This document shows, in pieces, positions 45,005 to 51,091 of a stretch of 64,000 bases of DNA (position 1 is the stretch's first letter; every line of letters starts with the position of its first letter). The notes under the pieces are model-generated. The model did not search any database. It was given only the letters and a program-made list of their open reading frames with translations, and was not told where the DNA came from. The stretch is from Hymenobacter sp. BT188 (GTDB lineage Bacteria; Bacteroidota; Bacteroidia; Cytophagales; Hymenobacteraceae): positions 62,001-126,000 of the forward strand of contig NZ_JACSCW010000001.1 of assembly GCF_014333585.1 (NCBI RefSeq). Reading direction: 5' to 3'. Position numbers and translations under genes: made by a program.

Positions 45005-45051
45005 AGAAAATACATGTTATATACAGTCGCTGCTTACGCCGAGTAACTGCG

Positions 45052-45918
45052 ATGAATGTAGAATTTGAGCAATATTATTTAATGGTTCAGACCCCCAACG
45101 TTAGTCAAGAGCTTTACGAATCATATTCCTCGTATCTAGAACGGGTAATTGTGTTGAAAGGGATGCTGTACCATGTAAGCAATATCTTTAAGCGAGACTT
45201 AAGTATGACTGAATCATGGCAAAATGATTCGACTAATATTTTATCAGCTAGCTCATTAGTTATAGGTGACTTAACAGGGCCTGATGATAATGGATGGAAA
45301 CTATATTACCACACAGGAAAAAACTATGTAGCTCGGCTGAATTCATATGAAATTGAATTAAAAAATTACGAGGAAAGGGAAGCAAATTATTCTGTTATAC
45401 AGGCCTACGAATCGTTTACAACATATTTCAAGGATATGTTGGCCGTGTATTTTTATCTATCCAAGGTGAATACAGATTTACTAAAGTCAATTAGTATAAA
45501 TGCGTCATCACAAGAATATAAAAATGCAATTAGGGAAAATAATTTTGGTAGAGCTAATAAAGAGTTATTCAAGGAGGCTAGAAATATTTCTGATAATTTC
45601 AAAAATGGAGAAGTTATCAACGGATCGGGTCTAAATTTATTCGATTGGTATCAGTCTCTGTCAGTAGTGAGAGATGCTATAGTCCATAGTCAAGGTATGG
45701 TAAAGTTAAAATATTTTGAAAAACTTACTGATAATCAAAAGAAAATACTGCACAGGTATTTTTGTGACAAAAATTGCGCTGATGACCTCATAAATGTAAA
45801 TTTAAAGGTCGATTCAGCTAATATGATATTAGAGAGATTAGCGGAGTTCGCCTTCTTCATTTTCAAAAGCCTGTCTATTGAAGTTGGTAAGGAATGGAGA
45901 GTTATGAAAGGCCAGTAA
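45052..45918 (+). CDS. Orphan protein with HEPN-like RX4H motif, AT-rich
   Basis: A 288-residue, mostly helical, cytoplasmic-looking protein without signal or membrane segment. I cannot assign a named family. The C-terminal third has SVVRDAIVHSQGMVKLKY: R-x4-H followed by a Gly, in a helix-turn setting typical of HEPN domains, where this motif forms the RNase active site. The middle contains a long polar helix (EIELKNYEEREANYSVIQAY). The DNA is far more AT-rich than the amidase and ABC-F genes beside it and lacks the GGGGGGC motif, so it was probably acquired. HEPN proteins often act in phage defence or toxin-antitoxin pairs; no partner gene is next to it, so a defence role is only a hypothesis. 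Confidence 0.65.
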   Translation: MNVEFEQYYLMVQTPNVSQELYESYSSYLERVIVLKGMLYHVSNIFKRDLSMTESWQNDSTNILSASSLVIGDLTGPDDNGWKLYYHTGKNYVARLNSYEIELKNYEEREANYSVIQAYESFTTYFKDMLAVYFYLSKVNTDLLKSISINASSQEYKNAIRENNFGRANKELFKEARNISDNFKNGEVINGSGLNLFDWYQSLSVVRDAIVHSQGMVKLKYFEKLTDNQKKILHRYFCDKNCADDLINVNLKVDSANMILERLAEFAFFIFKSLSIEVGKEWRVMKGQ

Positions 45919-45943
45919 CTATTATACCCTCCTCTCAAATCCT

Positions 45944-48173: not shown

Positions 48174-49148
48174 TTACTTCAGGAATTCCCATATTAGATT
48201 TTCTGTTTCAACCGGATTTGAAATAAAGACATAATGATTTGCCCCTTTTATTTCTTTCGTTACTCCATTTCTTACTTCTTTTTCAAACAATGCAATTTGC
48301 TCTCTGGCAAGGTTGCCAAACATGGTGTAACAGATATCAGCTTTCTTTTTATTTAAAGAATCAAGTGAATTATAAAATGGAATAACTGTGTGGATTGAGC
48401 CGGCAATTGAGTAAATAGCCAAGGCGGGACAACTTATACTTGTATAATTTGGCCGTTCAATACCTGATATAATTTTTCCCTGTATTTCACCAGGCGTTAC
48501 ATCTTTCTGATATTTACCGTCTTTTGAAAATACCATGGTACTTTTCATTTCATCATCAGGCATAGAAACCCCTGTGGTTTTTTTCGCAAATACTTTTAAA
48601 TTTTCAAATGAAGAAGAATCATTTGCAGTTGGAATTGGGGAAGCTGGAGCATAAGGCATAATGGTAGTTATAATACTACTACGGTCATAAGCTGCATCTA
48701 AATAAACTACTTTAGCTACTTTCTCTGGATAAGTTGATGAAAATTTTGAAATTTCTTCACCAGCAATAGAATGACCAATCAATATTACTTTGTCGAGATT
48801 CAGGGCTTTTGTTACAGCCAAAATATCCATAGCTAAAGTATCAATACGATAGCCATTAGTCGTTTGTTCAGAAGCCCCGAATCCTCTTCTTGTCATAGCG
48901 TAAACATGAAATTTGTCGCAAAATTTTGGAGCAAAATCAATAAACACATGGGCGGAGTTCCCCAAACCTGATAGAAACAGAACTGGTTCTCCAGTGCCAC
49001 CAAAATCTAGTATTTCAATTTTATTGTTTGTACTGCCACTTACAAATTTCGTTTGATAAACCGCTTGGCTTTTTTTATTTGATGTACTGCAAGAGAAAAG
49101 AAAAAAAATAGCTACAATAGTAGCTAAGAATATTTTTAAATGTAGCAT
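48174..49148 (-). CDS. Alpha/beta hydrolase lipoprotein
   Basis: A 324-residue protein with a lipoprotein signal (MLHLKIFLATIVAIFFLFS, then Cys). The hydrolase fold shows the oxyanion region LFLSGLGNSAHVF, nucleophile elbow GHSIAGEE, and a C-terminal His in KGANHYVFIS. The substrate is not predictable. The DNA is markedly AT-rich, unlike the ABC-F gene to its left, and lacks the window's frequent G6C motif. It belongs to an accessory block with the SulP, broken arr and GNAT genes. Confidence 0.83.
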   Translation of the reverse strand: MLHLKIFLATIVAIFFLFSCSTSNKKSQAVYQTKFVSGSTNNKIEILDFGGTGEPVLFLSGLGNSAHVFIDFAPKFCDKFHVYAMTRRGFGASEQTTNGYRIDTLAMDILAVTKALNLDKVILIGHSIAGEEISKFSSTYPEKVAKVVYLDAAYDRSSIITTIMPYAPASPIPTANDSSSFENLKVFAKKTTGVSMPDDEMKSTMVFSKDGKYQKDVTPGEIQGKIISGIERPNYTSISCPALAIYSIAGSIHTVIPFYNSLDSLNKKKADICYTMFGNLAREQIALFEKEVRNGVTKEIKGANHYVFISNPVETENLIWEFLK

Positions 49149-49522: not shown

Positions 49523-51091
49523 TTAATCGAGATGAAGCGTATTGTATTCATTAATATGTGTTTTTTCAACAATGATATTCTTTGTTTTTGCATTCGCTTG
49601 GAAATCATCTATCAATTCAAGTACATCATGGGCAACAGCCTTTGATTTTTCAAAATCAATAATCACTTTTGAGTTTTCAGGTATTGCATTCAATGTTTTT
49701 AAAACACTCGCTTTATTGAAAAAAGATACTTCCTCAGCCAGTACAAGATGATGCACTTCGCGTCCGTCTTCCGTTGTTGTCACATCTTTCATGTGGTGGG
49801 AGTTACGATAGCTGTGTCTGAGGGTATAGAAGATGCCAAATAGCAGACCTATCGCGATACCTCTTAGCAAATCTGTAAGCAGGATGGCTATTACTGTAGC
49901 GGTAAACGGCACAAACTGCTCCCAACCCAATTTGTACATCTGTATGAAGAGAGAGGGTTTGGCCAGTTTATAACCTACCATTAATAAAATGGCGGCTAAA
50001 CTTGCGAGCGGTATCATATTCATTATTCCTGCAATTGTTACAGCAGAAATTAGCAGGAATACCCCATGCAGGATGGCTGACATTTTTGTTTTCGCTCCGA
50101 AGTTGATATTGGCAGAGCTGCGCACGATCACCTGGGTAATTGGCAGGCCCCCAATTAAGCCAGATACCACATTTCCGAGCCCCTGGGCTTTTAATTCCCT
50201 GTTAGTTGGAGTAACCCTCTTGTAAGGGTCAAGTTTATCTGTTGCCTCTACGCAAAGCAAAGTTTCGAGGCTGGCCACAATAGCTAATACAATCGCTACC
50301 TTATAAACTTCCAGATTTGTTATCTGCGAAAAATCAGGAAAAGTAAACTGGCTAAAAAACTCGTTTAAATTACCTGCCACAGGTAATTGGACTACTTGGT
50401 CATTTGCAAGGGAAAAGTTAAGAGCTCCGGACTGGTACAAGTAATTAATTACAATGCCTAAAATAACCACTACTATAGGCCCTTGTATTAGTTGAAATAT
50501 TTTATGTTTCTTGCTAAGCACCGCATCCCATAATATAAGTATCGCTAACGATATTGCCGAAATCAATACGGCACCGGGTGTAACATGCTGCAAAGCGTTG
50601 GTCAGTGCAGAAAATGAGTTTTCGCCTCCCGTAGTAGACATAAATGCTAAATCGCCTTCTGCGTCTTTGTCATATCCTAAGGCATGGGGTATTTGCTTGA
50701 TAATTATCAGCAATCCAATGCCTGTGAGCATGCCCTTGATAACAGAGGATGGAAAGTAATAGGCTATAAAGCCGGCTCTGGCAAAACCCATTATTAGCTG
50801 AATAACGCCGGAAATAACAACAGCTAATAAAAATGTTGCCCACGATCCTAGTGAAGCAATAGAGGTTAAAACTATAACCGCAAGTCCGGCAGCGGGGCCG
50901 CTAACACCGAGAGCTGAACCACTTGCTATCCCTACAACAATACCACCGACGATGCCGGCAATGATACCTGCAAATAGAGGTGCGCCGGAGGCAAGCGCAA
51001 TACCGAGACATAAAGGAACGGCTACAAAGAAAACCACAACACTGGCGGGTAGGTCGCTCTTTAATTCTTTGAACATGCTTTTTGCTTCCAT
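49523..51091 (-). CDS. SulP-family anion transporter
   Basis: A 522-residue membrane transporter. MFKELKSDLPASVVVFFVAV followed by PLCLGIALASGAP is the typical start of bacterial SulP (sulfate or bicarbonate) permeases. GVSGPAAGLAVIVLTSI and GLIGGLPITQVIVRSSANIN are core motifs. A C-terminal STAS domain (about 425-522) has KVIIDFEKSKAVAHDVLELI. The anion cannot be decided. No carbonic anhydrase gene is adjacent. The gene is AT-richer than the window average and part of the accessory block. Confidence 0.9.
   Translation of the reverse strand: MEAKSMFKELKSDLPASVVVFFVAVPLCLGIALASGAPLFAGIIAGIVGGIVVGIASGSALGVSGPAAGLAVIVLTSIASLGSWATFLLAVVISGVIQLIMGFARAGFIAYYFPSSVIKGMLTGIGLLIIIKQIPHALGYDKDAEGDLAFMSTTGGENSFSALTNALQHVTPGAVLISAISLAILILWDAVLSKKHKIFQLIQGPIVVVILGIVINYLYQSGALNFSLANDQVVQLPVAGNLNEFFSQFTFPDFSQITNLEVYKVAIVLAIVASLETLLCVEATDKLDPYKRVTPTNRELKAQGLGNVVSGLIGGLPITQVIVRSSANINFGAKTKMSAILHGVFLLISAVTIAGIMNMIPLASLAAILLMVGYKLAKPSLFIQMYKLGWEQFVPFTATVIAILLTDLLRGIAIGLLFGIFYTLRHSYRNSHHMKDVTTTEDGREVHHLVLAEEVSFFNKASVLKTLNAIPENSKVIIDFEKSKAVAHDVLELIDDFQANAKTKNIIVEKTHINEYNTLHLD

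Follow-up and report, generated by a model that had tools for sequence, protein, structure and literature searches.

A rare, unnamed family of predicted standalone HEPN ribonucleases in Bacteroidota is a candidate one-gene abortive-infection system

The window, a stretch of 64,000 nucleotides from Hymenobacter sp. BT188, carries on its forward strand a HEPN-family ORF of 288 amino acids (45052..45918), as given by the ORF list and its translation. Translation may well begin at M11 (45082), the residue at which the aligned Hymenobacter copies start; read in this way, the sequence would encode 278 residues. The flanking ORFs, named from sequence reading alone, are amidase-like before the gene and ABC-F-like after it. 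The GC content of the gene (33.7%; GC3 33%) is the lowest among the window's 47 ORFs of at least 150 residues, in comparison with 60.4% (GC3 74.9%) for the preceding ORF and 55.3% (GC3 74.5%) for the following one. An earlier note on this DNA had described a lone gene of foreign composition between housekeeping-type genes, and each part of that description was borne out. The RDAIVH motif that it had placed in the C-terminal third, followed by SQG, was found there as residues 207-212 and 213-215, respectively. Two further low-GC ORFs lie downstream, at 48174-49148 (34%) and 49523-51091 (42%), and read as hydrolase-like and SulP-transporter-like, respectively; this part of the window may therefore contain more acquired DNA.

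The Rx4H motif was present in 17 of the 47 window ORFs of at least 150 residues and in 14% of shuffles of the window protein, while R[NDH]x3H occurred in 4 of the 47 ORFs and in 2% of the shuffles. The Rx4H motif by itself, being no more frequent than chance allows, was rejected as evidence for a HEPN domain, and only its conservation across homologs gives it significance. An alignment of 17 intact Bacteroidota homologs, with identities down to 21%, revealed eight positions that are invariant in all 17 sequences (D73, E120, R207, H212, S213, E265, K272, and S275) and three that are nearly so (L69, T88, and G89). Position 208 is H in 15 of the 17; the window protein has D there, and a divergent homolog (L087; motif RNLVVH) has N. 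This last gene lies between an uncharacterised ORF and one that reads as PIN-like (L087:620-3383). An interrupted 18th copy (L088) retains RHSITHS at the motif site.

The HEPN signature, as described in PMC3710099, consists of Rx4-6H with N, D, or H mostly following the R; in many, but not all, HEPN families another acidic residue is conserved as well, typically within Ex3[KR], and is considered part of the active site. All three elements were found in this family: the spaced R and H, the N/D/H after the R, and the upstream acidic residue. The first two lie in RDAIVHS (residues 207-213; 45670..45690, +), which we predict to be the RNase active site. The acidic residue is E120 (45409..45411, +), located in a long helix; some members, but not all, have a basic residue at +4 (for instance, K in L026-L028 and R in L029). 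The invariance of R207 and H212 thus upheld the conservation of the R and H on which the earlier note had made its HEPN reading depend.

Substitution rates were estimated for three pairs of homologs. Purifying selection was evident in the Pontibacter pair (dN 0.107, dS 0.507, dN/dS 0.21) and between the window gene and G048 (dN 0.311; dS 2.77, which is saturated), and the evidence for it was weak in the youngest pair, G048 and G102 (dN 0.023, dS 0.036, dN/dS 0.64).

Searches with the window protein gave no meaningful match in Pfam (all families well short of their cut-offs, the best E being 0.11), PADLOC or NCBIfam (no family matched), or PHROGs (only families of unknown function, E 0.044 or weaker), in agreement with the earlier note, which saw no named family. 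Among PDB sequences, the best match was a thermonuclease at E 0.3. When 16 family members were scanned, HEPN_Apea (PF18739) was the sole Pfam family matched by more than one of them, with four matches, all below its cut-off, and a best E of 0.0037. The best of these, L021 (18.1 bits against a cut-off of 24.4), aligned residues 95-200 with profile positions 2-113 of 136, spanning the long helix through RxxxxH; the window protein had no listed match to this family. HEPN_MAE_28990 matched one of the 16, also below cut-off, and no member exceeded the cut-off of any HEPN family of Pfam among the matches listed. The PADLOC and NCBIfam matches of the 16 members were weak and scattered, including MTase_II (best E 0.0019), AbiEi (0.0033), PDC-M02A in two members (0.0058), and RTasHEPN in one (0.037). 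Profile searches of the PDB gave GpsB at E 0.07 with a 9-row profile and nothing with a 16-row profile.

The family profile was then compared by HHalign with an alignment of 10 ApeA proteins, two from Bacteroidota genomes and eight from plasmid records, all of which share E317, R397, and H402. E120 was placed on E317, and R207 and H212 on R397 and H402. The HEPN part scored 25.3-26.1, at a probability of only 4-8%. The reversed control scored 15.6; none of 150 column shuffles and two of 150 shuffles in 12-column blocks reached 25.3, and with the larger alignment none of 100 block shuffles reached 26.1. Known HEPN proteins compared with one another scored 20.2 (ApeA with Tha), 15.6 and 16.3 (ApeA with two MAE_28990 examples), and 15.1 (Tha with one MAE_28990 example), indicating that the family stands closer to ApeA than these proteins do to each other. 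Kinship with MAE_28990, considered because of the one weak match, was rejected, as the two examples scored 17.3 and 16.6, at shuffle level. The comparison with Tha was negative (profile score 18.8; best BLASTP E of 4.0 for Tha-1), as it is by profile for known HEPN proteins, which also miss each other by this method. A scan of viral contigs for ApeA relatives found none. The full sequence signature, together with the HEPN_Apea matches below threshold, supports HEPN membership.

An AlphaFold2 model, built with 16 homologs, reached a pLDDT of 83.0 and a pTM of 0.80. It shows a helix (residues 19-54), a hairpin (63-72/85-95), and helices at 96-137, 153-163, 170-179, 181-189, 196-212, 227-237, and 253-277. 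Helix 196-212 ends with the R207/H212 motif, and the long helix 96-137 contains E120. From the model and the conservation, we delineated an N-terminal module of residues 19-95 (45106..45336, +), composed of the first helix and the β-hairpin, which carries invariant D73 and near-invariant L69, T88, and G89 and which we propose to be the sensor or control part. Residues 96-277 (45337..45882, +) would form the HEPN helical bundle, with helices 96-137, 170-189, 196-212, and 253-277 as its predicted core, an assignment based on the model, the HEPN_Apea matches, and the profile alignment. The long helical N-terminal part that the earlier note had envisaged was thus reduced to one helix, followed by the hairpin, with the putative bundle starting at about residue 96.

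The fold expected by the earlier note was recovered in part: the model is a helical bundle in which the motif ends a helix, but none of the solved HEPN structures matched it significantly. Foldseek against the PDB and viral structures returned nothing at E 0.001 or better. In VIA-align, HepS (9oik_A) ranked second (Z 7.0, rmsd 4.2, 140 residues aligned), and with an earlier model it ranked third (Z 6.4, rmsd 4.5, 145 aligned), with Csm6 (4rgp) at Z 4.8. We take HepS and Csm6 to be HEPN proteins; their Z values were tied with those of rhodopsins and designed bundles, and these similarities therefore serve as a lead only.

Homologs are rare in the genomes searched. Matches were obtained in 7 of 204 genomes of the genome's own taxonomic family, its own genome included. 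With its own genome again counted and false matches removed, the order gave 2 of 390 and the phylum 2 of 395, the profile searches having contributed one true homolog to each count (G421 and G671, respectively). The class gave 4 of 395, including its own genome and one broken copy, and added G1186 and the broken copy in G925. Two candidates, G257 in the order search and G590 in the phylum search, were rejected as false by reading of their ORFs, which appear methionyl-tRNA-synthetase-like and GGDEF-like, respectively; a phylum search centred on G590 covered the same phylum again and gave no further homolog. A contig scan yielded 13 loci, six of which are the same places as matches from the other searches, in Hymenobacter, Adhaeribacter, Aestuariibaculum, a Flavobacteriaceae bacterium, Joostella, Mesonia, Membranihabitans, two Pontibacter, Flavobacterium, Flavihumibacter, a Bacteroidetes bacterium, and Dyadobacter. 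Every homolog found belongs to Bacteroidota, the phylum on which the genome searches were centred, the contig scan having used one conserved peptide pattern. No homolog was detected in phage records, or in viral contigs scanned with two conserved peptides, and absence from either pattern-limited contig scan weighs little. The plasmid search gave one match only, at chance level (E 0.9). Searches of open-licence papers gave no name for this HEPN family.

The low GC content recurs in other hosts. The homolog of Hymenobacter BT18 has 31.8% GC against 59.2% for its locus, and the Pontibacter homologs have 34-36% against 52-53%. In a tree in which several branches are long or weak, a Saprospiraceae copy falls among those of Flavobacteriaceae, and the Pontibacter copies lie far from copies of the same family. 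The gene is rare, patchy in occurrence, and AT-rich, and the occurrence of AT-rich homologs in GC-rich hosts, together with the placement in the tree, fits horizontal spread.

The neighbourhoods of the homologs were compared by clustering ORFs of at least 70 residues from 16 loci, and the closest neighbours by blastp (E 1e-3) of ORFs of at least 25 residues within 1.2 kb of 17 homologs. The sole cluster common to all 16 loci was the HEPN homolog itself. Within 1.2 kb, similarity was confined to Hymenobacter and to Pontibacter, each with itself; clusters crossing genera comprised ABC ATPases of Hymenobacter and Pontibacter, and a 416-461-residue ORF shared by Hymenobacter and L022, several kilobases away. 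No neighbour is common to the loci in general, hence no general partner gene of the kind expected beside a toxin-antitoxin gene was detected in these 16-17 loci, in support of the earlier note's single-gene reading. An acidic ORF of 75-95 residues, about 70% identical between L020:8836-9063 and L010:6251-6538 and convergent to the homologs, lies 5 bp from the homolog in the former and ~2.9 kb away in the latter, and had no match in the other loci compared. It is possibly an accessory or partner of the sub-branch formed by the sister homologs of Adhaeribacter (L020) and G146 (L010). In Adhaeribacter (L020:7156-8831), the homolog overlaps a preceding ORF that reads as agmatine-deiminase-like by 4 bases, downstream of GmrSD.

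In the three Hymenobacter carriers, the HEPN gene lies immediately upstream of the one that reads as ABC-F-like. According to PMC3710099, HEPN is combined with an ABC ATPase in PrrC and RloC. A partnership with the ABC-F-like gene was rejected, because that gene is near-universal in the genus (59 of 61 genomes, against three matched by the HEPN protein) and does not accompany the homologs in other genera. At 29 other loci of the ABC-F-like gene, the HEPN gene was found at none, and the amidase-like gene lay within the 1.5-kb flank at six. The closest of these, in G071, has flanks of 91-93% DNA identity, between which window positions 45006-45943 are replaced by ~800 bp (L058:675-1472) holding an unrelated 194-residue ORF that reads as lipoprotein-like. 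L009 has an ORF of similar appearance close to its HEPN gene. The slot thus seems to exchange small genes.

Defence genes were looked for around 12 loci outside Hymenobacter, a set that leaves out L027 as a near copy of L026. Restriction or Lamassu genes lay within 7 kb, or just over, at four of the 12: LmuB (E 1.6e-118) with a CTD7 protein at L010, GmrSD at L020, HsdR and HsdS at L030, and, in Joostella (L023:7992-10453), an Mrr-type restriction nuclease 35 bp downstream of the homolog on the same strand, with which it possibly forms a two-gene operon. At the other eight loci and at the window locus, no defence gene was identified, Pfam having been applied to 10 of 130 neighbours, and the surroundings of the window gene do not form a defence island. 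The Aestuariibaculum, Pontibacter, and window copies sit among genes that read as ordinary. At L028, a gene of the phage-integrase family lies directly upstream of the homolog. In Dyadobacter, the ORF immediately upstream of the homolog (L031:6713-7969) reads as a tyrosine recombinase, with no Pfam match at E 0.001.

At a PADLOC threshold of E 1e-10, 130 models were matched among 130 neighbour ORFs and 11 among 129 ORFs of random regions, a comparison that counts models rather than genes, since a single restriction protein can match a large number of them. Details of the neighbour matches were taken from the best 25 of the 130 models. No restriction or Lamassu model was among the 11 control models, some of which carry defence names (mad2, mad3, mad8, AriA, MzaA, and PycTM). 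The control is small, consisting of 10 of 12 random regions, taken from three of the genomes that carry the tested loci, with L055 and L056 omitted before searching on account of their size.

In line with the essential point of the earlier note, these observations suggest that the homologs probably constitute a Bacteroidota family of standalone HEPN endoribonucleases that has no name yet and whose likeliest role is that of a one-gene abortive-infection system. An anti-phage role is probable on circumstantial grounds, namely the patchy occurrence, the foreign composition, and the presence of restriction or Lamassu genes in the vicinity of 4 of the 12 non-Hymenobacter homologs. Alternatively, the protein might be a HEPN toxin from a toxin-antitoxin pair, or an RNase of the stress response, with a partner that is small, non-adjacent, or of another kind, and with no main anti-phage role. 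HEPN domains are common in toxin-antitoxin systems, as stated in PMC3710099, and the convergent 75-95-residue ORF near the L010 and L020 homologs could be such a partner. We consider this explanation unlikely, since that ORF stands at very different distances from the two homologs and is unmatched in the other loci compared, similarity among the ORFs within 1.2 kb of the 17 homologs stays inside Hymenobacter and inside Pontibacter, and the genes flanking the window copy belong to the host.

A role in RNA processing or binding, of a housekeeping or regulatory kind, for a HEPN-fold protein that is rare by mere happenstance would agree with the ordinary surroundings of the window, Aestuariibaculum, and Pontibacter copies. 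The very patchy distribution (7/204, 2/390, 2/395, and 4/395 genomes) and the AT-rich genes in GC-rich hosts speak against it, and it appears less probable again. The least probable explanation in our judgment is that the protein has a helical fold other than HEPN, with the R and H put to some different use. It is consistent with the lack of a significant match to any solved HEPN structure and of any score over a Pfam HEPN cut-off; on the other hand, the full signature of E, R, N/D/H, and H is conserved in 17/17 homologs and aligns with invariant ApeA residues, and HEPN_Apea alone among Pfam families matches more than one member.

Taking the family as abortive-infection ribonucleases, we propose the following mechanism. 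The HEPN protein would be inactive at rest, probably as a dimer, under the control of the N-terminal helix and the conserved β-hairpin. A product of infection, which might be a structural protein of the phage as in the case of Tha, would be sensed, whereupon the R207/H212 pairs at the dimer cleft would cut RNA without metal. Translation would then stop, and the cell would die or go dormant before phage release. We suggest, more tentatively, that the conserved β-hairpin (D73; L69, T88, and G89) might be specialised to detect a component of the phage, or one of the host that infection has altered, and might directly activate the attached HEPN RNase, an architecture that would be distinct from those of ApeA, Tha, and HepS and so far confined to Bacteroidota.

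If the preferred interpretation is true, the family would add an unnamed one-gene HEPN effector that was missed by the Pfam, NCBIfam, and PADLOC models used, and the conserved hairpin would offer a concrete place to seek the trigger. Since profile comparison hardly links even the known HEPN proteins to each other, families of this sort readily escape notice, and tests of conservation of the kind applied here provide a way to find them.

Three known HEPN systems are informative for comparison. HepS, from the Gifsy-1 prophage, has been solved bound to a phage tail tip, according to its PDB title (9oik; chain of 218 residues). Its VIA-align ranks of 2 and 3 for the two models of the window protein correspond to Z values within helical-bundle noise, and no sequence match to it was obtained in the PDB search (E ≤ 10).

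ApeA, the anti-phage HEPN protein represented by HEPN_Apea, resembles the family in its HEPN domain, whose invariant E, R, and H are the counterparts of E120, R207, and H212 in the alignment, whereas the family falls below the Pfam cut-off. The N-terminal parts differ. The two Bacteroidota ApeA-family proteins are 460 and 476 residues in length with a long N-terminal part, whereas members of the window family have ~250-290 residues with a helix and a hairpin. The N-terminal part of ApeA is mostly β, as described in PMC3710099; this domain (ApeA-NTD1) spans ~300 residues, while the window protein has only ~95 residues before the bundle in the model.

A system of like overall plan is Tha-1, encoded by gp03 of the Staphylococcus phage 80alpha. 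In PMC11087260, it is described as a 301-residue single-gene system with a C-terminal HEPN motif, RNSIMH, that degrades RNA when a phage minor tail protein is present and whose protection is abolished by a change of H270. Like the window protein, Tha-1 is the product of one gene, of comparable length (301 vs 288 residues), with a C-terminal R-polar-x3-H motif (RNSIMH vs RDAIVH) and an N-terminal part without a named domain. Tha-1 is borne on a prophage and paired with the inhibitor Ith, whereas the window family is mostly chromosomal and lacks a general partner. One-gene abortive-infection HEPN systems are of a kind already known, and the window family, unnamed and rare, is a good candidate for a further one.
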